NCBI RefSeq assembly: GCF_025136295.1
Contig: NZ_CP062788.1
Coordinates: 2,398,501-2,462,500 of the forward strand
Reading direction: 5' to 3'
Origin: Aestuariispira ectoiniformans
Lineage (GTDB): Bacteria > Pseudomonadota > Alphaproteobacteria > UBA8366 > Aestuariispiraceae
Length of the DNA stretch: 64,000 nt
Shown here: positions 1,367 through 13,157 of the stretch, one piece after another
Layout of the letters: the number at the start of each line of letters is the position of its first letter
How positions within the stretch are numbered: position 1 is the stretch's first letter
Translations under genes and position numbers: made by a program
Notes under the pieces: model-generated
Database searches by the model: none
Told to the model about the DNA's origin: nothing
What the model saw: the letters and a program-made list of their open reading frames with translations, nothing else

Positions 1367-3009
1367 TGTCAAAAGGCCAAGACCTTCTCAAAGTCAAAGA
1401 CCTCAAGATCGAGGCGACTTCCTATCCGCCGGGCGAACCGCCACAGGACGTCGTGCTGGTGGAAAATGTTTCCTTTGAACTGACCAAGGGCCATGTCCTG
1501 GGGCTGATCGGGGAATCCGGTGCGGGCAAATCCACCATTGGCCTGGCGGGCATGGCCTATGGCCGTGGCGGTTGCCGGATCACTGGTGGTGAAGTTTGGC
1601 TGAACGGGGAAAATATCCTCGCTCTCAGTCACCGGGGTGTGCGGAAAATCCGCGGGCGGTCCGTGGCCTATGTTGCACAATCAGCAGCAGCGGCTTTCAA
1701 TCCGTCCCATCGTCTGATGGACCAGGTTGTCGAAGGGGCGCTGGAGCACAACCTTATGTCCCGCGCCGAGGCCTGTGAATTTGCGGTGGAACTGTTCCGG
1801 AAACTGGGGCTGCCCGACCCGGATAATTTCGGCAGGCGCTATCCGCATCAGGTCTCCGGCGGTCAGCTTCAGCGTGCCATGACGGCCATGGCCCTTTGCG
1901 CCAAACCGGACCTGATTGTCTTTGACGAACCGACAACTGCATTGGATGTCACGACACAGATCGATGTGCTAGCGGCGATCAAGGATGCAATCCGGGATAC
2001 GCATACGGCGGCGCTTTATATCACCCATGACCTGGCCGTGGTAGCGCAGGTGTCCGACGATATCCTGGTCTTGCGCAACGGCGGGATGGTTGAATACGGT
2101 ACGACGGAACAGATCATCAACAACCCGCAGGAACAATATACCCGGGAACTGGTGTCCGTTCGTTCCATCCATCACGACGAAGGCGGGGAACTGTCCGAAG
2201 ATCCTGTCTTGAAGATGGATCATATTACCGCTGCCTACGGCAATGGTATTACCGTCCTCGACGACGTTACGGCCCATCTTTATAAGGGGCAGACCCTGGC
2301 TGTGGTGGGTGAATCCGGGTCCGGTAAATCGACGCTGGCGCGCGTTATCACCGGCCTGTTGCCGCAGAAGGAAGGACAGATCATCTTCCAGGGTGAGGAA
2401 TTGCCCAAGGACCTCAAGAACCGCACCAAGGAACACTTGCGGCGCTTGCAGATGATTTATCAGATGGCGGATGTCGCCATGAACCCGCGTCAGACCGTGG
2501 GGCAGATCATCGGTCGCCCGATCGAGTTCTATTTCGGTATTCGCGGTGCGGAAAAGCGCAGGCGCGTCGCCGAATTGCTGGATCAGATCGAGATGTCCGA
2601 CGGCTTTGTCGACCGCTATCCGGCGGAACTGTCCGGTGGTCAGAAACAGCGTGTCTGCATCGCCCGTGCGCTTGCCGCCAAGCCGGATATGATCATCTGC
2701 GACGAGGTTACTTCCGCTCTTGATCCGCTGGTGGCCGACGGCATCCTGAAATTGTTGTTGAGCATCCAGAAGGAAACCCAGGTCTCCTACCTGTTCATCA
2801 CCCATGATATCGCGACCGTGCGTGCCATCGCGGATTCAATTGCCGTGATGTACAAAGGCCATCTGGTGCGTTTCGGTGAAAAGTCCAAGGTTCTCACGCC
2901 GCCATTCGACGACTATACAGACTTGCTGTTGTCGTCGGTTCCGGAAATGGAACTGGGCTGGTTGGAGCATGTGCTCAAACACAGAAAAATGGAATCGGCC
3001 GGTAACTGA
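1366..3009 (+). CDS. Double ATPase of peptide-type ABC importer (DppD-DppF fusion)
   Basis: A 547-aa protein with two complete ABC ATPase domains, equivalent to DppD and DppF in one chain. Domain 1 has Walker A GESGAGKST (about residue 49), signature VSGGQLQRA and Walker [13 protein letters not shown]. Domain 2 has Walker [10 protein letters not shown] (about 315), signature LSGGQKQRV and Walker B MIICDEVTSALD, where Val replaces the usual Pro of DEPTSALD. The ATG overlaps the TAA of the upstream permease by one base, with GGGAGGA at 1350-1356. Fused ATPases are known in this family. It powers the two permeases just upstream and is the last gene of the operon. Confidence 0.93.
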   Translation: MSKGQDLLKVKDLKIEATSYPPGEPPQDVVLVENVSFELTKGHVLGLIGESGAGKSTIGLAGMAYGRGGCRITGGEVWLNGENILALSHRGVRKIRGRSVAYVAQSAAAAFNPSHRLMDQVVEGALEHNLMSRAEACEFAVELFRKLGLPDPDNFGRRYPHQVSGGQLQRAMTAMALCAKPDLIVFDEPTTALDVTTQIDVLAAIKDAIRDTHTAALYITHDLAVVAQVSDDILVLRNGGMVEYGTTEQIINNPQEQYTRELVSVRSIHHDEGGELSEDPVLKMDHITAAYGNGITVLDDVTAHLYKGQTLAVVGESGSGKSTLARVITGLLPQKEGQIIFQGEELPKDLKNRTKEHLRRLQMIYQMADVAMNPRQTVGQIIGRPIEFYFGIRGAEKRRRVAELLDQIEMSDGFVDRYPAELSGGQKQRVCIARALAAKPDMIICDEVTSALDPLVADGILKLLLSIQKETQVSYLFITHDIATVRAIADSIAVMYKGHLVRFGEKSKVLTPPFDDYTDLLLSSVPEMELGWLEHVLKHRKMESAGN

Positions 3010-3024
3010 TACCGCCTCTAAAAC

Positions 3025-3057
3025 GAAAAAGGCTCACATCATGTGGGCCTTTTTTTG
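3025..3057 (+). terminator. Rho-independent terminator of first ABC operon
   Basis: GGCTCAC (3031-3037) pairs with GTGGGCC (3043-3049) around a five-base loop, followed by seven T at 3050-3056. It lies 16 bases after the ATPase stop codon and closes the operon. Confidence 0.9.
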
Positions 3058-3181
3058 TGTGTAGGCCTTTGGCGGGGCTTGGTCCTCCACAGAACGGGTT
3101 TGCGGCGCCCTGACGGATAGCGGGCGCATTAACATGGATTAAGGATGAGGGGGCTTTCTCTATGTTAGGGAGGTGGCGTTC

Positions 3182-3616
3182 ATGCCAGCCAGTCTTAACA
3201 GGGAGACGCGAGAGATGAAAAAGAAAGCCCAAACGCCGACATATGAGTTTGGCGATATTGCGGCATTTGCGCCAATGGCGGCCTTCAACGGCCCCATGTC
3301 ATCGGCGATGATCCGTTCCAGCCAACTTTTCGCCAAAAGCCTGCAGACAATGCCTGCGGAGGTCGCAGGATTTATCGGGCGGCGTGTGGAGGCCGATGCC
3401 AAGCTCTATTCCGATTGTGCCCACTGCGATGATTGGCAGGATTTGGTCACCGTTCAGCAGAAATGGCTGAAGCAGACCAGTGAGGACTATCTGAAAGAAA
3501 TGAACCAGATGATGGCGATCAGCCAGTCGCTGTTCAGTGATGCGGCGAAGGTGGCGACACAGGCGACCAAGGATATGGCGTCTGAGGCCGATGAGAAAGC
3601 CTCGCCAACAGAATGA
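3182..3616 (+). CDS. Phasin family protein (PHA granule-associated)
   Basis: A small, helix-rich, Met/Ala/Gln-rich protein of 144 aa without signal or membrane segments, resembling Phasin_2 proteins that coat polyhydroxyalkanoate granules. The middle (roughly residues 35-115) is amphipathic, with repeated AxxxQxxW/L spacing typical of phasins, and the C-terminus is charged. It lies just upstream of PHA synthase on the same strand, which strongly supports the call. GGGAGG at 3168-3173 is eight bases from the ATG at 3182; a second start at 3215 also has a GGGAG site. The short CAHC motif in the middle is unusual for a phasin and I cannot explain it. Confidence 0.78.
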   Translation: MPASLNRETREMKKKAQTPTYEFGDIAAFAPMAAFNGPMSSAMIRSSQLFAKSLQTMPAEVAGFIGRRVEADAKLYSDCAHCDDWQDLVTVQQKWLKQTSEDYLKEMNQMMAISQSLFSDAAKVATQATKDMASEADEKASPTE

Positions 3617-5658: not shown

Positions 5659-7170
5659 TCAGGCCTGGGAGGTTGCCTCCCGGGCCTTGCGCCGCCTGCC
5701 AAGGATGGCGGGTACGGCGACGATAACCACGGTCAGGCCATAGAAGGCGATACTGTCGACGGATTCGAACAGGATGCTCCAATCCCCCGCAGAAATCGAC
5801 AGCGCCCGGCGCAGGTTGTCTTCCAGAAGGGGGCCGAGAACAAATCCCAGGATCACCGGTGCAAGAGAGAACTCAAGCTTGCGCAGGACCCAACCCAATA
5901 TCCCGAGCAGGACCGTCATATAGAGGTCATGCGGATTGCCGACGACGGAATAGACCCCGATGAAGGCAAGCACGGCGATCATCGGCGTCAGGTATTTATG
6001 CGGGATCGTCAGCAAACGGGCAAAGAGGCCAACCATCGGCAGGTTGATAAACAGCAGTGCCAGGTTGCCTACATACATTGAGGCAATCAGCCCCCAGGCG
6101 ATCTCGGGCCGTTGCTCAAACATCAGCGGGCCCGGCGTTACGTTGAACATCAACAACGCGCCCAGAAGAATGGCCGTTGTGCCGGAACCGGGAATGCCCA
6201 GAGTCAGCATCGGAACCATTGCCCCACCGGCGGCAGCATTGTTGGCGGCTTCCGGCGCGGCAAGCCCACGCGGATCGCCTGTACCGAATTTGTCGGAATC
6301 CGGCAGAATGCGTTTTTCAGAGCCATAGGCCACGGCGGAGGCAACCGATGCGCCGGTACCCGGCAGGATACCGATGAAAAACCCGATGATCGACGACCGC
6401 AGAATGGTCCATTTGACGTCGAACAGGTCCTTCATCGAGACAAAGCTCTTGTCGATTGCCAGGGTCTTGAGGCGGCCGCTGACCTGCTGTTCCACCAGAT
6501 GGATCAACTCTGCCATGCCGAACAACCCGATCACGACCACAAGGAAGTCGATACCGGCAAGCAGGTCGGGAATCCCGAAGGTATAGCGCGCAACGCCGGT
6601 ATTGGCATCAATGCCGATGGATGACAGCATAAGCCCGATCAGCGCCGCCAGCAGCGTCTTGAAGGCATTCTTGCCGACGAGCGAGGCCAGGCATGCAAAG
6701 GCGAATACCATCAGCGCCACATAGTCGGAGGGCGAGAATGTAACGGCATAGGAGGCGAGCAGGGGGCCGAACAATGTCATCAGGACAACCGCGAATGTGC
6801 CACCGATAAAGGAGGCGACGGCGGAAAGCGACAGCGCACGTCCGGCTTCACCCCGTTTGGCCATCGGGTTGCCGTCCAATGTGGTCATGACTGCGCCTGC
6901 ATCGCCGGGCACGTTCAGAAGAATTGACGAAATACGTCCGCCATATTCTGCACCATAGTAAATCCCGGCCAGCAGGATCAGCGCCGATTCAGGCGGCAGA
7001 CCGAGGCTGTAGGCGATGGGCAGCAGGATTGCCACACCGTTGATGGGACCGATGCCCGGCAGGGCGCCGATCAAGGTTCCGGCAAAGCATCCGCCCAGAA
7101 CCAGGAAAAGGTTGAATGGCAGGAGGGTGACGGAAAAGCCCTGCAGTAATCCCTGTACGACGGCATCCAT
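5659..7170 (-). CDS. tctA: Tripartite tricarboxylate transporter large permease TctA
   Basis: Large membrane subunit (503 aa, about 12 helices) of a TTT-family secondary transporter that takes up citrate-like carboxylates with the binding protein TctC and small subunit TctB. Family motifs are present: GALPGIGPINGVAILLP near the N-terminus, the second half-repeat IGFFIGILPGTGASVASA, and PEAANNAAAGGAMVPMLTLG. The ATG ending at 7170 has GAGG nine bases upstream; a TTG nine codons earlier would be a poor start. It overlaps the tctB stop region, showing tight coupling. The transported carboxylate cannot be assigned from sequence. Confidence 0.95.
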   Translation of the reverse strand: MDAVVQGLLQGFSVTLLPFNLFLVLGGCFAGTLIGALPGIGPINGVAILLPIAYSLGLPPESALILLAGIYYGAEYGGRISSILLNVPGDAGAVMTTLDGNPMAKRGEAGRALSLSAVASFIGGTFAVVLMTLFGPLLASYAVTFSPSDYVALMVFAFACLASLVGKNAFKTLLAALIGLMLSSIGIDANTGVARYTFGIPDLLAGIDFLVVVIGLFGMAELIHLVEQQVSGRLKTLAIDKSFVSMKDLFDVKWTILRSSIIGFFIGILPGTGASVASAVAYGSEKRILPDSDKFGTGDPRGLAAPEAANNAAAGGAMVPMLTLGIPGSGTTAILLGALLMFNVTPGPLMFEQRPEIAWGLIASMYVGNLALLFINLPMVGLFARLLTIPHKYLTPMIAVLAFIGVYSVVGNPHDLYMTVLLGILGWVLRKLEFSLAPVILGFVLGPLLEDNLRRALSISAGDWSILFESVDSIAFYGLTVVIVAVPAILGRRRKAREATSQA

Positions 7171-7180
7171 AACTAAAACC

Positions 7181-7621
7181 TCACAAAATAAACTCAAGCA
7201 GACCGGCAGGCAGGTTCAGGTCCAGAAGGACCGTACAAACCAGGTAGCCGACAACGCCTGCAATTGCGCCAAACAGGACGGCCGCCTTCAGACTGGCCCG
7301 CAACATCAAGGACAGTGCCAGACAGAACAGCCAGGTTGACAAAATGAAGCCCAACGGCTGGTAGAGCCATGCATAGGCGGCGAGCATTCCTACAAGGGCG
7401 GCCAGTCGGCCAATTGTCTTGCCGCTTGCCTGCAGGGTGCGGACGTCGGGGCGAAGAAGAATGATGCCGCAACAGATGATTGTCAGGACGCCGACAAGGC
7501 GGGGCCAGGATTCAGGGCCAAGCGGGTCGTATTGAAACGGCGCTTTAATGACTGTGAATGCCATGACGGTGTAAATAGTTGCGACCACAAGCAGCATGCC
7601 GGCGAAAATCCGGTCAGCCAT
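7181..7621 (-). CDS. tctB: Tripartite tricarboxylate transporter small permease TctB
   Basis: 146 aa with four predicted membrane helices, the size and topology of TctB. One helix starts near residue 5 (IFAGMLLVVATIYTVMAF) and the others fall at about 40-55, 75-110 and 115-135. Family-typical sequence YDPLGPESWPRLVG follows helix 1. It lies between tctC and tctA and has the ribosome site GGGAGGAAG before its ATG. It is the poorly conserved small subunit of the carboxylate symporter; assignment rests on position as well as sequence. Confidence 0.92.
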   Translation of the reverse strand: MADRIFAGMLLVVATIYTVMAFTVIKAPFQYDPLGPESWPRLVGVLTIICCGIILLRPDVRTLQASGKTIGRLAALVGMLAAYAWLYQPLGFILSTWLFCLALSLMLRASLKAAVLFGAIAGVVGYLVCTVLLDLNLPAGLLEFIL

Positions 7622-7695: not shown

Positions 7696-8673
7696 TTAGT
7701 TGATGAGACCGGCTTCGCGGGCGATTTCGCGCATATTCTGGACGCGGCCCTTGATCGAGTCGGACAGTTCTTTGCCAGCCATGTTCAGCGGCAGCAGGCC
7801 TTTTTCTTTCTGAACCTTGGCGAAGGCTTCGGTCTTGTAGGCCTCTTTGAAGGCTTTGACCCAGGCATCATAGGCTTCGTCGGAGACGTTTTTGCCCATG
7901 TAATAGCCACGCATGATCACCCATTCCGCGTTGTAGCCGAGTTCCTTGGTCGTCGGAATGTCAGCGAAGGGGGCGGGAAGGCGTTCCGGGGACATAACAG
8001 CCAGAATGCGCATGGTGCCTGCACCAATGTGGGATGCCATTTCTGCAACGTCGCCGGTGTAGACATCAATGCTGCCACCCAGCAGGGCGGCAATAGCCTC
8101 GCCGCCGCCATCAAAGGCGACATAGCGCATGGCCTTCGGATCCAGGCCTTTGGATTTCAAAACCAGAGCGGCTTTCATCCAGTCCTGGGAGCCGACGGAA
8201 CCACCAGCGCCAAAGATGACGGAGCCGGTATCGCTTTCAGCGGCCTTCATCACATCATCCAGGGATTTGTATTTGCTGTCGGCTTTTACGACGATTGCGC
8301 CGTAGTCCGCACCGGCGGTGGCCAGCCAGCGAACGTCATTTTCCGTCCACTGGCCATATTTGCCGGTGGCGATGTTCAACAGGGAACCGGAAGAGAAAGC
8401 AACGATAGCGTTTTCATCATCCGTGCGGGTGGTGTTGAACAGGTTGATTGCAACAGCACCGATGCCGCCGGGCATGAAGCTGACCTGTACCGGTTTCGAC
8501 ATTTCTTCTTTCAGGCCCGCCTGTGCAACGCGGCAGGTCAGGTCAAAACCGCCGCCGGGTTTGGCGGGGGCGATGCATTCCGGTTTTTCAATGTCCGCTG
8601 CGAAGGCGGCGGTTGTCAGAAAAATGGCAAGCGTAGCGGTAGCGATAGACCCAACGGTCCGTGAGATTTTCAT
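7696..8673 (-). CDS. tctC: Tripartite tricarboxylate transporter substrate-binding protein TctC
   Basis: Periplasmic binding protein of the TTT system, 325 aa. A Sec signal peptide (MKISRTVGSIATATLAIF..., cleavage near AFA-AD, residue 25) leads into the Bug/TctC fold. Typical elements are CIAPAKPGGGFDLTCR near the start of the mature protein (the loop that wraps the carboxylate) and FGAGGSVGSQDWM further on. The ATG has GGGAGGATATA in front. It is first in the tctCBA operon and divergent from the TctDE-like regulators. Confidence 0.95.
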   Translation of the reverse strand: MKISRTVGSIATATLAIFLTTAAFAADIEKPECIAPAKPGGGFDLTCRVAQAGLKEEMSKPVQVSFMPGGIGAVAINLFNTTRTDDENAIVAFSSGSLLNIATGKYGQWTENDVRWLATAGADYGAIVVKADSKYKSLDDVMKAAESDTGSVIFGAGGSVGSQDWMKAALVLKSKGLDPKAMRYVAFDGGGEAIAALLGGSIDVYTGDVAEMASHIGAGTMRILAVMSPERLPAPFADIPTTKELGYNAEWVIMRGYYMGKNVSDEAYDAWVKAFKEAYKTEAFAKVQKEKGLLPLNMAGKELSDSIKGRVQNMREIAREAGLIN

Positions 8674-8774
8674 TATATCCTCCCATAATCAGGCTCAAGC
8701 TGACGTTCATGCTCGCCGGTCTCTGTTTTTGGATTTATTGCCGACGAAACACCTCAGCCTGTTATTAAGCAAGC

Positions 8775-8818
8775 GAACTGACCAGAGATTGACCCGAAGC
8801 TGACCTGATGCTGACTCG
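8775..8818. promoter_or_regulatory. Four tandem 11-bp repeats: probable TctD operator
   Basis: Four head-to-tail 11-mers, GAACTGACCAG, AGATTGACCCG, AAGCTGACCTG and ATGCTGACTCG, with consensus RNNYTGACYNG. The TGAC cores start at 8779, 8790, 8801 and 8812, exactly one helical turn apart. OmpR/PhoB-family regulators bind such direct repeats. The array lies about 100 bp upstream of tctC and about 58 bp upstream of the response-regulator gene, so it could activate tctCBA and control its own regulator. Confidence 0.7.
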
Positions 8819-8875
8819 GGTGTCGTTACGCCGTTTTTTCTTAAAGAGGCCGGGGCAAAGGAGTATGAAGAGGCT

Positions 8876-9547
8876 ATGCGCATGCTTCTTGTGGAAGATA
8901 ACAACGACCTGGCGGAGATGATTGTGGATCGGTTTCGTGCCGATGGCCACGCCATGGACCATGAGGTCGACGGCAGCCAGGCAGAGCAGCTTTTGCGGCA
9001 CAGCCGTTTCGATATCATCATTCTGGATATCAACCTGCCGGGGATGAGCGGATATGACGTTCTGCGCACCATGCGGGCGCGTGGGGATGCCACGCCGGTT
9101 CTGGTCCTGACCGCGCGTTCGGAAATTGATGACCGTATCATCGGCCTTGATACCGGGGCCGACGATTATCTTGTAAAGCCGTTTGACTATGGCGAACTGG
9201 CTGCGCGTTGCCGCGCCCTGGTGCGCAGGCGGGCGGGAGAGGCCAGCAACAATTTCCTTTGCGGGAACCTGCAGTATGACCGGGGAGCAAAACGCGCAAC
9301 CGTGGACGGTGTTGATCTGGAACTGCGTCAGCGCGAGATTCAATTGCTGGAAGCTTTTCTGGGCAGTCTCGGGAAGGTGCTGTCCAAGGAAGAAGTTGCC
9401 GACAAAATCTACAGGTTTGATGAGGCCCCCAGTCTGAACGCGGTGGAACAGGCGGTCACCCGCCTGCGTCGGAAATTGAAGGGCTCGCCGCTGACCATCA
9501 GGACAATTCGCGGCCTTGGATATATTGCCAATGCACGGGACGACTAA
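8876..9547 (+). CDS. TctD-like response regulator (OmpR family)
   Basis: Cytoplasmic DNA-binding response regulator, 223 aa. The receiver domain (residues 1-115) has the acidic pair in LLVEDNND, phosphoacceptor Asp51 in ILDINLPGMSG, Thr in VLTARS and Lys in YLVKPFD. The winged-helix domain (about 125-220) ends with TIRGLGYIA, typical of OmpR/PhoB. It overlaps the next gene, a sensor kinase, and is divergent from tctCBA, the classic tctD position, so it probably activates the carboxylate transporter. AAGGAG lies 12 bases before the ATG; an internal start at 8882 is possible. Confidence 0.92.
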   Translation: MRMLLVEDNNDLAEMIVDRFRADGHAMDHEVDGSQAEQLLRHSRFDIIILDINLPGMSGYDVLRTMRARGDATPVLVLTARSEIDDRIIGLDTGADDYLVKPFDYGELAARCRALVRRRAGEASNNFLCGNLQYDRGAKRATVDGVDLELRQREIQLLEAFLGSLGKVLSKEEVADKIYRFDEAPSLNAVEQAVTRLRRKLKGSPLTIRTIRGLGYIANARDD

Positions 9548-10958
9548 GGGAGGAACCGCATATTCCCTGCGGCGGCGGCTCATGGTCGCCATGATGGTGG
9601 GGTTCATCATTATCTTGTCGGTCGTATCCGTAGGCCTATGGGGCTATGCCCGCAATGCCGCCAACAGCACATATGACCTGTTGCTGGACGGGGCATCCAT
9701 TGCCGTTCTGGAACGCATTTCCATGACGCCGGAAGGCGTTGCAATTGATTTTCCGCCGTCGGCACTGGAAATTCTGGGGCTTGCCCGTGAGGATCGTGTC
9801 TTCTATCGGATATTCACGGGAAATGGTCAGACGCTGACGGGCCGGTCCGATCTGCCTTTACCCAGACGAGGGGGCAAAAACCCGGATAGCCAGTTCTACG
9901 ATGCCGACTACAGTGGAGAGACCGTTCGTTTTATCCTGCGCGGACGGCAGATACCCGGGCCGAAAGCACCGCAGTGGATCAATGTGCAGATCGGCCAGAC
10001 GCGTGCCGCCCGCGATGAAATGCAACGGGACCTCTTTTCCAATGGCCTGTTGGGGCTGACAGCCCTTGCGGTGATCGGCCTGATCTTCGTGCGCATCGGG
10101 ATTAATCTGGCCCTGCGTCCCCTGTCGGGGATCGAGGCGGATATCCGCAATCGCGAGCCCAGCGACCTCGCGCCCCTGAAAGCGACGCCGCCGCGCGAGG
10201 TGGAAAGTCTGATCGGCACGATCAACGCCTTCATGCGCCGGTTGGAAACCAGCAAAGACAATGCCCAGACCTTCATTGCCGATGTTGCCCATCAGTTGCG
10301 GACGTCCCTGTCTTCCCTGCGTGGACAACTTGAACTTGCAGCCGAACAGAAAGACCCGAAACTTGCCGCCGCGCGTCTGGAAAAAGCATCCGATCAGGTG
10401 GGGCGCACTATCAGGCTGACCAATCAGTTGTTGTCCCACGCCATGGTAATCCACCGTGCCGACAGCCAATTGCGGGACCGTGTCGATATCGAGGCGCTTG
10501 TCAAAACGGCGCTGGAGGAAATCATCCGGGATGATGTCGATTCCCGCATGGATTATGAGTTCCATATGGATGAGGCACGGGCAGGCGACATGGTGGTGGC
10601 CGGTGATGCAATCGCCCTGCGTGAGGCGCTGCGCAATGTGATTGATAACGCCAGGAAACACGGCGCATCCGGTGGACTTGTGCGGATTGAACTGAGTGAT
10701 CAACTGGTTGCGGGGAACCCTGCCATTGCTATTGCGGTGGAAGATAACGGTCCGGGTGTTGCCCCGGAAGAATACGACAACGTTCTGAAGCGTTTCTATA
10801 CAATCGGGGGAAAAGGAGAGAGCGGCATCGGACTTGCCATAGTGAAAGCCGTCGTCGAAGGGCATGAGGGAACGCTGTCCCTTTCAAGGGCGTCTGGCGG
10901 CGGGCTTCGGGTGCAAATGGTTCTGCCTGTTGGTGAGATCAAGGGAGATCAGGTGTGA
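9531..10958 (+). CDS. TctE-like sensor histidine kinase
   Basis: Inner-membrane sensor kinase of 475 aa, partner of the preceding regulator. Membrane helix 1 (about residues 18-42) is followed by a periplasmic 2CSK_N-like region, helix 2 (about 165-190) and a HAMP region. The HisKA motif ADVAHQLRTSLSSLRGQLE carries the phosphorylated His near residue 254. The HATPase domain shows VIDNARKHG (N box), DNGPGV (G1) and GIGLAIV (G2). The first ATG at 9531 overlaps the regulator by 17 bases; a TTG at 9516 is the alternative. It probably senses an extracellular carboxylate, perhaps with the binding protein encoded next. Confidence 0.9.
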   Translation: MHGTTKGGTAYSLRRRLMVAMMVGFIIILSVVSVGLWGYARNAANSTYDLLLDGASIAVLERISMTPEGVAIDFPPSALEILGLAREDRVFYRIFTGNGQTLTGRSDLPLPRRGGKNPDSQFYDADYSGETVRFILRGRQIPGPKAPQWINVQIGQTRAARDEMQRDLFSNGLLGLTALAVIGLIFVRIGINLALRPLSGIEADIRNREPSDLAPLKATPPREVESLIGTINAFMRRLETSKDNAQTFIADVAHQLRTSLSSLRGQLELAAEQKDPKLAAARLEKASDQVGRTIRLTNQLLSHAMVIHRADSQLRDRVDIEALVKTALEEIIRDDVDSRMDYEFHMDEARAGDMVVAGDAIALREALRNVIDNARKHGASGGLVRIELSDQLVAGNPAIAIAVEDNGPGVAPEEYDNVLKRFYTIGGKGESGIGLAIVKAVVEGHEGTLSLSRASGGGLRVQMVLPVGEIKGDQV

Positions 10959-11992
10959 GACGGCTGACGACAATGGCCCGGATTCTTGCCTGCCTGACCC
11001 TTGCCGGTTGGCCCGTCGGGGATGTTCAGGCAGAGGTCCTGCATATTTTCAGTGCAACGGACACGGCCGCGATCCAACCCGTTATTGATGGTTTCGAGAA
11101 GGCCCATCCTGACCTGACCGTGGACTATGTGGAGTTCAACACCAGCGAACTTCACACGGCAATTCTTGAGGATACATCCGCGCCTGTTGATGTCGTGATC
11201 AGTTCGGCGATGGATCTTCAGGTGGATCTGGTCAACCGCGGGCTGGCACAGCGCTTCACACCCGCCATGGACGCACCGCCGGATTGGGCGCAGTGGCGTA
11301 ACGAGCTTTATGGCTTCACCTTCGAACCGGTCGCCGTGGTATACAACCGCGCTGCCTTTCAGGGGCGTCGTCTGCCACGAACGCGGTCACAGCTTGCCGG
11401 GGCAATCAGGGATGATCCGGCTTTCTATAATGGGCGCATTGGTACTTATGATATCGCACAGTCCGGTGTCGGTTTCCTTTTTGCCGCCCAGGACGCGCGG
11501 CGAGGCTATCAGTTTCCGAGGCTTGTGGAATCGCTGGGGCGGGCACATGCGAAGACCTATTGCTGTTCATACAAGATATTCGATGCGGTGGCCGACGGAA
11601 GTCTCGTGTTCGGCTACAACGTCATGGGGTCCTATGCCCTGGAGCGAACCCAGCGTGACAAACGCCTCGGGATTTATCTGCTTGAGGATTATGCGCTGGT
11701 GATGACCCGCACGGCCTTCATCCCGAAAAGGTCGGAAAACAAGGATGATGCCAAGGCTTTTATCAATTATCTGCTGTCATCGCGCGGGCAGAGGAAAATT
11801 GCGGAAGGGTCTGCCCTGATTGCCATTCGGCAGGAACAAAGAACGGCACCGGGGATCGTCGCATTGACTTCTGGTAAGCCGCTGCTTCCGATCCGGCTTG
11901 GCCCGGGGCTTCTGGGTTATCTGGATAAAATGAAAAAAGAACAGTTTCTGAAAGACTGGCGCACCACAATGGCCGGTCCACCCAATCAATAA
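10955..11992 (+). CDS. Orphan periplasmic substrate-binding protein (COG1840-like) with TctDE
   Basis: 345-aa secreted protein with a signal peptide (about residues 1-27, cleavage near VQA-EV) and the type 2 periplasmic binding fold of the AfuA/FbpA-like family. It begins LHIFSATDTAAIQPVIDGF and contains PVDVVISSAMDLQ. Its GTG start overlaps the kinase stop by four bases (GTGA) with AGGGAGA upstream, so it is co-translated with the two-component pair. No permease or ATPase accompanies it. I infer an accessory ligand sensor for the TctE-like kinase; a binding protein for a transporter elsewhere is the alternative. Confidence 0.82.
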   Translation: MRRLTTMARILACLTLAGWPVGDVQAEVLHIFSATDTAAIQPVIDGFEKAHPDLTVDYVEFNTSELHTAILEDTSAPVDVVISSAMDLQVDLVNRGLAQRFTPAMDAPPDWAQWRNELYGFTFEPVAVVYNRAAFQGRRLPRTRSQLAGAIRDDPAFYNGRIGTYDIAQSGVGFLFAAQDARRGYQFPRLVESLGRAHAKTYCCSYKIFDAVADGSLVFGYNVMGSYALERTQRDKRLGIYLLEDYALVMTRTAFIPKRSENKDDAKAFINYLLSSRGQRKIAEGSALIAIRQEQRTAPGIVALTSGKPLLPIRLGPGLLGYLDKMKKEQFLKDWRTTMAGPPNQ

Positions 11993-12089
11993 TCCGCCTT
12001 TCGGGGGAGCATCAACGGCACCCGGAACGTTGGACAAGATAAAAAATCAGTAATCTACGCAAGCTTTGTTGTATGGGAAGGGTAGCAGC

Positions 12090-13157
12090 ATGGAAAAATT
12101 CGAAAAATATCTCAACCGGGACATGCTGCTGAAACTGGCACTGGCGCTTGCCGTGGGAGGCAGTGGCGGTGTTATCGCCCATTTCCTGCACGTTCCCCTG
12201 GGATGGATGCTCGGGTCCATGCTGGCAACTTTCGTGGCAAGCATGCGTCGGCTGCCTGTTGCGGTTCCCATGCGCCTGCGTGCGACAATGCTGGGGGTGC
12301 TTGGCGTATATCTGGGGTCTTCATTCGGGCCGGAAACATTGCATTATATGGTTGAATGGCCGTTCTCGATGGCCGCCGTCGTGATCTATGTGCCTTTGAT
12401 GACGGCCATTACCGCCTTTTTCTATCTGAAGGTTGCCGGGATGGACCGTGCGACGGCGGTGTTTTCCGCGACACCGGGCGGGTTGACGCCCATGGTCGTG
12501 CTGGGTGGTGCTGCTGGTGGAGACGAGCAGAAAATCGCCGTGACGCAAAGCCTGCGCGTGATGGTGCTGGTCTTTTCCACGCCGTTGATGGTCTTCAATT
12601 TCCTTGATGCGCCAACCGCAGAGGCGGAGGTGGTGCAGCTCATATCATTGGCTGACGCAGCCATCATCGTCGTCGCTGTGATCGCGGGCATCCTGATCGC
12701 CCGGCGCATCGGCATGCCTGCGGCGGAAATGACCGGTGCGATGTTTGTCACGGGTGGCCTATATATTTCAGGCGTGGTTCAGGGCGCCCTGCCGGAATGG
12801 CTGCTGGCAGTGACGTTGCTGGTCCTCGGGTCTGCAATCGGAAGCCGTTTCTCCGGAATTCCGCGAGGTGTCCTGATACGCCTGTCGGGATTTGCCATGC
12901 TGGCTATCGTTTTGATCTTTGCCGTCACTGCAGTTGTCGCAGCCATCCTGTCGTCACTGTTGGGGTTCGATTATATGTCGGTCCTTTTGGCCTTTGCGCC
13001 GGGCGGGGTTGCGGAAATGTCCCTGATTGCGGTGGCACTGAATGTGGAGCCCAGTTTCGTGGCCTTCCATCATGTCGTACGGATTTTCGTTATTTTGCTG
13101 CTGGCGCCCCTGCTTTCGCGCTGGCTTCGTCAGGCCCCGGCCAGACAAGGGGACTGA
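12090..13157 (+). CDS. AbrB-family integral membrane protein
   Basis: 355 aa, about ten membrane helices, in two homologous halves. Half one has GWMLGSMLATFVASMRRLP and FSATPGGLTPMVVLGGAAGGD; half two repeats the pattern with AFAPGGVAEMSLIAVALN. The duplicated (S/F)xxPGG(L/V)xEM(S/V) loops are the AbrB/AimA signature. E. coli AbrB was once called a regulator, but the protein is plainly a membrane protein of poorly known, possibly transport, function. The start at 12090 has GGGAAGGGTAG upstream. It follows the TctDE-binding-protein operon on the same strand after 97 bases. Confidence 0.85.
   Translation: MEKFEKYLNRDMLLKLALALAVGGSGGVIAHFLHVPLGWMLGSMLATFVASMRRLPVAVPMRLRATMLGVLGVYLGSSFGPETLHYMVEWPFSMAAVVIYVPLMTAITAFFYLKVAGMDRATAVFSATPGGLTPMVVLGGAAGGDEQKIAVTQSLRVMVLVFSTPLMVFNFLDAPTAEAEVVQLISLADAAIIVVAVIAGILIARRIGMPAAEMTGAMFVTGGLYISGVVQGALPEWLLAVTLLVLGSAIGSRFSGIPRGVLIRLSGFAMLAIVLIFAVTAVVAAILSSLLGFDYMSVLLAFAPGGVAEMSLIAVALNVEPSFVAFHHVVRIFVILLLAPLLSRWLRQAPARQGD

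Follow-up and report, generated by a model that had tools for sequence, protein, structure and literature searches.

A phased four-unit direct repeat between tctC and a TctD-like regulator gene of Aestuariispira ectoiniformans as a probable OmpR/PhoB-type operator

The stretch of DNA analysed here (hereafter the window) comprises 64,000 nucleotides of the Aestuariispira ectoiniformans contig NZ_CP062788.1 (positions 2,398,501 to 2,462,500). It contains a tctCBA-type transporter operon and, divergent from it, genes for a response regulator, a sensor kinase and two further proteins:

5659..7197, minus strand: tctA-type large permease (PF01970)
7181..7621, minus strand: tctB-type small membrane subunit (PF07331)
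7696..8673, minus strand: tctC-type substrate-binding protein (PF03401)
8876..9547, plus strand: OmpR/PhoB-type response regulator (PF00072 and PF00486), the proposed binder of the array described below
9516..10958 (longest ORF), plus strand: sensor histidine kinase (2CSK_N (PF08521), HisKA, HATPase_c)
10955..11992, plus strand: extracellular solute-binding protein, with a 4-base overlap with the kinase gene
12066..13157, plus strand: AbrB-duplication membrane protein (PF05145)

The solute-binding protein encoded at 10955..11992 is possibly part of the sensor. It and the kinase are two overlapping genes in the window, unlike in three Rhodobacterales loci (L128 6641-9055, L129 6668-9076 and L130 6668-9067), where they are fused into one frame of 799-804 aa. 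These fused frames have a third hydrophobic segment between the kinase and solute-binding parts, which would return the binding domain to the periplasm. An Azospirillum gene (L132 5647-8229) also covers both the kinase and the solute-binding matches. Genes weakly similar (27-31%) to the AbrB-duplication protein adjoin tctA in four relatives.

Four TGAC cores lie on the plus strand between tctC and the regulator gene, starting at 8779, 8790, 8801 and 8812 in exact 11-bp steps, and a recount on the sequence reproduced the cores and the period given in the original prediction exactly. Each of the four 11-mers spanning 8775-8818 matches RNNYTGACYNG. Framed on the conserved unit derived below, the array reads:

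8778..8788, plus strand: operator unit 1 (tctC-proximal), CTGACCAGAGA
8789..8799, plus strand: operator unit 2, TTGACCCGAAG
8800..8810, plus strand: operator unit 3, CTGACCTGATG
8811..8821, plus strand: operator unit 4 (regulator-proximal), CTGACTCGGGT

The start codon of tctC (8673) is about 101 bp from the start of the array, in agreement with the predicted distance of about 100 bp, and 60 bp separate the end of the last core from the regulator ATG (8876).

Given the frequency of TGAC, chance alone would yield 4.8e-5 exact four-core runs in the window and 3e-3 in the genome (4.36 Mb); scanning the window returned the exact pattern once. With up to three mismatches allowed there were 3 matches (shuffles expect 0.49), two of them being the same array slid by one unit. 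In the whole genome, YTGWCx3 at period 11 was found only in the array (as two overlapping matches), and TGACx3 at period 11 was found at 4 places, two of which are within the array (the reversed control pattern gave 0). The remaining two TGACx3 sites (L003 outside an ORF, L004 inside one) look chance-like, with 0.7 three-core runs expected genome-wide.

We compared the intergenic region with those of 14 close orthologues, whose regulators are 61-74% identical to that of the window and which come from plasmid records (Palleronia, Salipiger, Sulfitobacter, Maritalea) and other genomes; the grouping into close (14) and mid-distance (22) loci was picked by hand. A divergent tctC is present in 14/14 close loci, and tctA as well in the 5 with wider loci examined. 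Lack of the repeats upstream of orthologous tctC genes had been named beforehand as a result that would refute the prediction; same-strand TGWC pairs at 11 bp were kept in 14/14 close orthologues, while each of the other spacings from 6 to 16 was seen in at most 2/14 (shuffle mean 0.22, largest 2). The run of TGWC units is four long in 3 of these orthologues, three in 10, and two in 1 (L115, in which the next two positions are TGAT then TGTC). All ten three-unit relatives have CTGWN at the next position toward tctC, which we read as a decayed fourth unit. On the opposite strand, 4/14 close loci have TGWC pairs at 11 bp; these are read as GACA within TGACA units, because CTGWC gives 0 there.

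In an alignment of the 15 loci (window included), TCA is kept in 15/15 loci in units 2-4 and CA in 15/15 in unit 1, although the anchoring of the alignment itself imposes part of the agreement in units 3-4 and related loci cannot count as independent, L006, L116 and L117 being near copies. Columns past unit 1 agree in only 4-10 of 15 loci, so the near-invariant cores point to more than shared intergenic ancestry. The predicted consensus RNNYTGACYNG fits every 11-mer of the window, but its Y after TGAC does not hold across the close loci (10/15, 8/15, 5/15 and 8/15 for units 1-4), and the full consensus is matched by 1/15, 2/15, 3/15 and 8/15. Its first R is found in 7/15, 11/15, 14/15 and 15/15 loci, its last G in 4/15, 13/15, 12/15 and 14/15, and an A after the G in 13/15 and 15/15 at the starts of 11-mers 3 and 4 (8775-8818 frame). 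The better unit is CTGAC-NNG, usually with A next, and it is clearest in units 2-4. Unit 2 of the Maritalea array is TTGAC, the same as unit 2 of the window.

All fetched regulators were then binned by bit score to the window regulator, and the 250 bp upstream of each was scanned for a CTGWC pair at 11 bp. Such pairs were found for 14/15 regulators scoring at least 250 bits, 28/37 at 190-250 bits and 3/8 at 170-190 bits, and for 0/25 at 150-170 bits and 0/73 below 150 bits (72 valid rows, as L094, at a contig edge with a wrong upstream slice of 3008 bases, was scored negative in this bin). L043, with 30 bases upstream, was left out before counting. The 250-bp count consists of the 200-bp set plus 16 plasmid loci, and the 200-bp version gave 14/15, 21/24, 3/7, 0/23 and 0/73 in falling bins (the pair of L210 sits 199 bases upstream). 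The 9 other regulators of the same genome have no such pair upstream (0/9). Looser cores gave an 11-bp pair for 1/96 (YTGWC) and 3/96 (TGWC) distant regulators, and a spacing of 15 was seen in 3/24 loci of the mid bin. The signal thus tracks relatedness of the regulator and is concentrated at 11 bp, which supports the predicted assignment of the repeats to the TctD-like regulator. The motif is short and the window is one of many scanned by eye, both of which would favour a chance or unrelated repeat; set against the 4.8e-5 runs expected in the window, its presence in 14/14 close orthologues and in 0/98 distant regulators (CTGWC rule) excludes chance in our view, and we give such an origin next to no weight.

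There are exceptions to this trend. The miss in the closest bin is L198 (56% identity), which has no array. In the second bin, the 9/37 regulators without a pair comprise four Azospirillum loci (with the regulator in a same-strand gene run, after a universal stress protein gene), plasmid loci of Burkholderia, Vibrio and Novosphingobium, L008 and L009. By eye, L008 has CTGTC/CTTTC at 11 bp and L212 has CTGTC/CTATC, and both were scored as misses. In the third bin 5/8 regulators are without a pair, and one of the three with a pair, L015, is placed far away on the tree. Among the 22 hand-picked mid-distance loci, 20 have a TGWC pair at 11 bp (absent in L198 and L008). In Bosea, Bradyrhizobium and Phyllobacterium a two-unit site persists even where the divergent gene encodes an ABC ATPase (a by-eye reading in Bosea, annotated in Phyllobacterium), and the motif therefore travels with the regulator.

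The number of units also differs among the groups: 12/15 regulators of the closest bin have three or more YTGWC units, as compared to 0/45 in bins two and three together. Two units are the usual number in mid-distance relatives, and the clade of the window has four, some of them decayed. On the regulator tree, loci with the same array size group together (13 label changes, as compared to a shuffled mean of 35.9). Under the strict YTGWC rule, having three or more units takes 4 changes on this tree, a number that owes something to L189 and L115, whose second units (ATGAC and CTGAT, respectively) break the rule; the tree does not demonstrate a single origin.

The window regulator scores 192.2 bits against the NCBIfam TctD equivalog model NF012023, which is the best of 97 models for it but has a curated cut-off of 337; in a search of the genome with this model it scores 192.4 bits and another regulator of the genome scores 193. 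The divergent tctCBA neighbour expected of TctD is present in the window. With a score far under the cut-off and about the same score for another regulator, the label "TctD-like" used in the original prediction is right by neighbourhood, and the score does not support the plain name TctD.

Put together, the array has what is expected of tandem direct repeats for OmpR/PhoB-type regulators, i.e., a short core repeated at about one helical turn and conserved with such a regulator. We consider it highly probable that the array is a double-dimer operator of the adjacent regulator, most likely activating tctCBA; binding, stoichiometry, activation, autoregulation and ligand are the parts of this reading that we infer from sequence. 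The four CTGAC half-sites lie on the same face of the DNA at intervals of one helical turn, and two head-to-tail dimers of the regulator, presumably in its phosphorylated form, would occupy them; the bound regulator would stand in for the -35 element at the tctC promoter. The kinase, perhaps aided by its solute-binding protein, likely senses the substrate, with activation of tctCBA as the outcome; citrate as the ligand would be a guess from family history. The same array may also set the expression of the regulator itself.

In Pho promoters, the repeats face the target promoter at a set spacing to the -10 element, and the bound regulator takes the place of the -35 element. Read along the tctC strand, the window has GTCAG units, and the repeats point at tctC. 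A weak candidate -10 element lies in the window 8-10 nt past the last unit on that strand:

8762..8769, minus strand: candidate -10 of the tctC promoter (CTTAAT / TAATAA)

The best TATAAT-like hexamers start 8-11 nt past the last unit on the tctC strand, and the mean best TATAAT match peaks there at 3.27 of 6 (15 aligned loci, among the offsets tested); matches at single loci are weak, at 2 to 4 of 6. Published regulation in three species fits this reading: in Salmonella a tctD deletion reportedly leaves tctCBA repressed, in Bordetella bctDE is reported to activate bctCBA and the substrate-binding protein takes part in sensing (both PMC5812351), and TctD of P. aeruginosa regulates its own gene and opdH-tctCBA (PMC4513871).

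The same regulator might instead use the array chiefly to repress or autoregulate the regulator-kinase operon, with only indirect effects on tctC. Such a role is possible because the two-unit sites of mid-distance loci crowd the regulator start: 19/20 mid-group pairs end 10-55 bp before it (120 in L152), where they could block the regulator promoter, and in several of these loci a divergent tctC was not found in the stretch examined. In 14/14 close orthologues, however, the array lies between the divergent genes and the end of its last core is 49-63 bp from the regulator start; its orientation to tctC is Pho-box-like, and a weak -10 recurs at an almost constant offset. TctD and BctD are also reported to act positively on the transporter (PMC5812351). 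We therefore rate a mainly repressive or autoregulatory site as unlikely, though it deserves more weight than the other alternatives. As a separate observation, a -10-like TANNNT occurs shortly before the regulator ATG in 9/15 close and 0/13 mid loci, which hints at a leaderless regulator transcript in relatives; the window has TATGAA in this place (within 8864-8876), which departs from strict TANNNT.

An alternative binder is PhoB, either at a Pho box or, together with TctD, at a composite like the quadripartite box of P. aeruginosa, so that phosphate limitation acts too. The array and the Pho box, in which a 5-nt spacer separates two (T)GTCAT boxes (PMC4513871), share 11-bp direct repeats and a GTCA core. 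The PhoB/TctD box of P. aeruginosa is described in the same paper as a PhoB box plus 22 nt, which by arithmetic equals the array in total length. The array is however without CTGTCAT flanks and its conservation tracks the tct regulator, i.e., a different regulator. Measured against CTGTCAT-N4-CTGTCAT, it differs at 5/14 positions or more (6 on the tctC strand); in the 14 relatives, the best Pho-box place in the 200 bp upstream has 3-5 mismatches, and the array of the window is absent from the 33 matches of the genome at up to 2 mismatches. In addition, the opdH-tctCBA and tctD promoters of P. aeruginosa carry the TctD motif only (PMC4513871). With at least 5/14 mismatches here and a one-mismatch Pho box elsewhere in the genome (G000:C1:1643112-1643129, L215), we hold a Pho box or a PhoB composite to be very improbable. 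The box at L215 lies upstream of a gene that by eye resembles a periplasmic nucleotidase.

The double-dimer operator of the TctD-like regulator can be compared with several known systems. As in P. aeruginosa (PMC4513871, Nucleic Acids Res. 2015), an OmpR/PhoB-type regulator lies beside a tctCBA-type operon; the TctD motif there is found in the tctD and opdH-tctCBA promoters, a small regulon that resembles the situation in the window. Unlike the P. aeruginosa box, the site of the window and its relatives is a single phased array of as many as four units, with no PhoB half apparent; the passages of PMC4513871 and PMC8041468 searched for the TctD motif do not spell out its letters. As in Salmonella TctD-tctCBA and Bordetella BctDE-bctCBA (PMC5812351), the regulator adjoins the transporter operon on which it acts positively in those species, and the divergent arrangement is that of Salmonella. 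Unlike both, the window has a regulator far under the TctD cut-off and an extra solute-binding protein after the kinase. Upstream of a Salmonella plasmid tctD (L213, complement of 2591-3265) there is no CTGWC pair (n=1); by eye, CTTTCAAT occurs twice at 11 bp in the same single sequence, which suggests the same layout with another core. The CenR site of Rhodobacter sphaeroides (TGA-N8-TGA; PMC9275681) is also a tandem direct repeat of an alphaproteobacterial OmpR-family regulator, and differs from the array in having 10 bp between half-site starts, two half-sites and an envelope regulon.

We regard the array as a well-supported case, by the sequence comparisons above, of the established OmpR/PhoB-type operator kind. 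Its modestly new aspects are that it has four units, that this form is concentrated in a single regulator clade and that the unit can be given precisely as CTGAC-NNG; the titles and abstract openings searched name no alphaproteobacterial tct operator, which is weak evidence of absence. A tentative proposal, to which we give somewhat less than even chances, is that an older two-unit operator was doubled in this lineage to give the four-unit array, which would act as a cooperative two-dimer switch common to both divergent promoters; the regulator-side units would be strong, and a weaker tctC-side unit, in decay, would tune the transporter promoter. Related species with two or four units offer a natural series on what extra half-sites add. 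The precise unit and spacing provide a testable operator for a widespread group of alphaproteobacterial regulators encoded next to tripartite tricarboxylate transporters, and the site stays with the regulator where the type of the neighbouring transporter changes.

The original prediction had further suggested that the motif could be used to find the regulon, which was not borne out by the genome scan: the whole genome has 42 CTGWC pairs at 11 bp as compared to 28 for the reversed control, an excess too small to call a regulon, and the motif finds essentially one locus, which points to a local operator and not a visible regulon. Among the 30 pair loci examined (of 42), 3 are in no ORF of at least 80 codons (L166, L176 and L181). 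The best intergenic pair by eye is a GTCAG pair at 11 bp (G000:C1:2538187-2538202; L181 1501-1516) with TATAAA 8 nt later, which is a possible second target; it lies upstream of a gene that, also read by eye, resembles that of a dihydropyrimidine dehydrogenase subunit.
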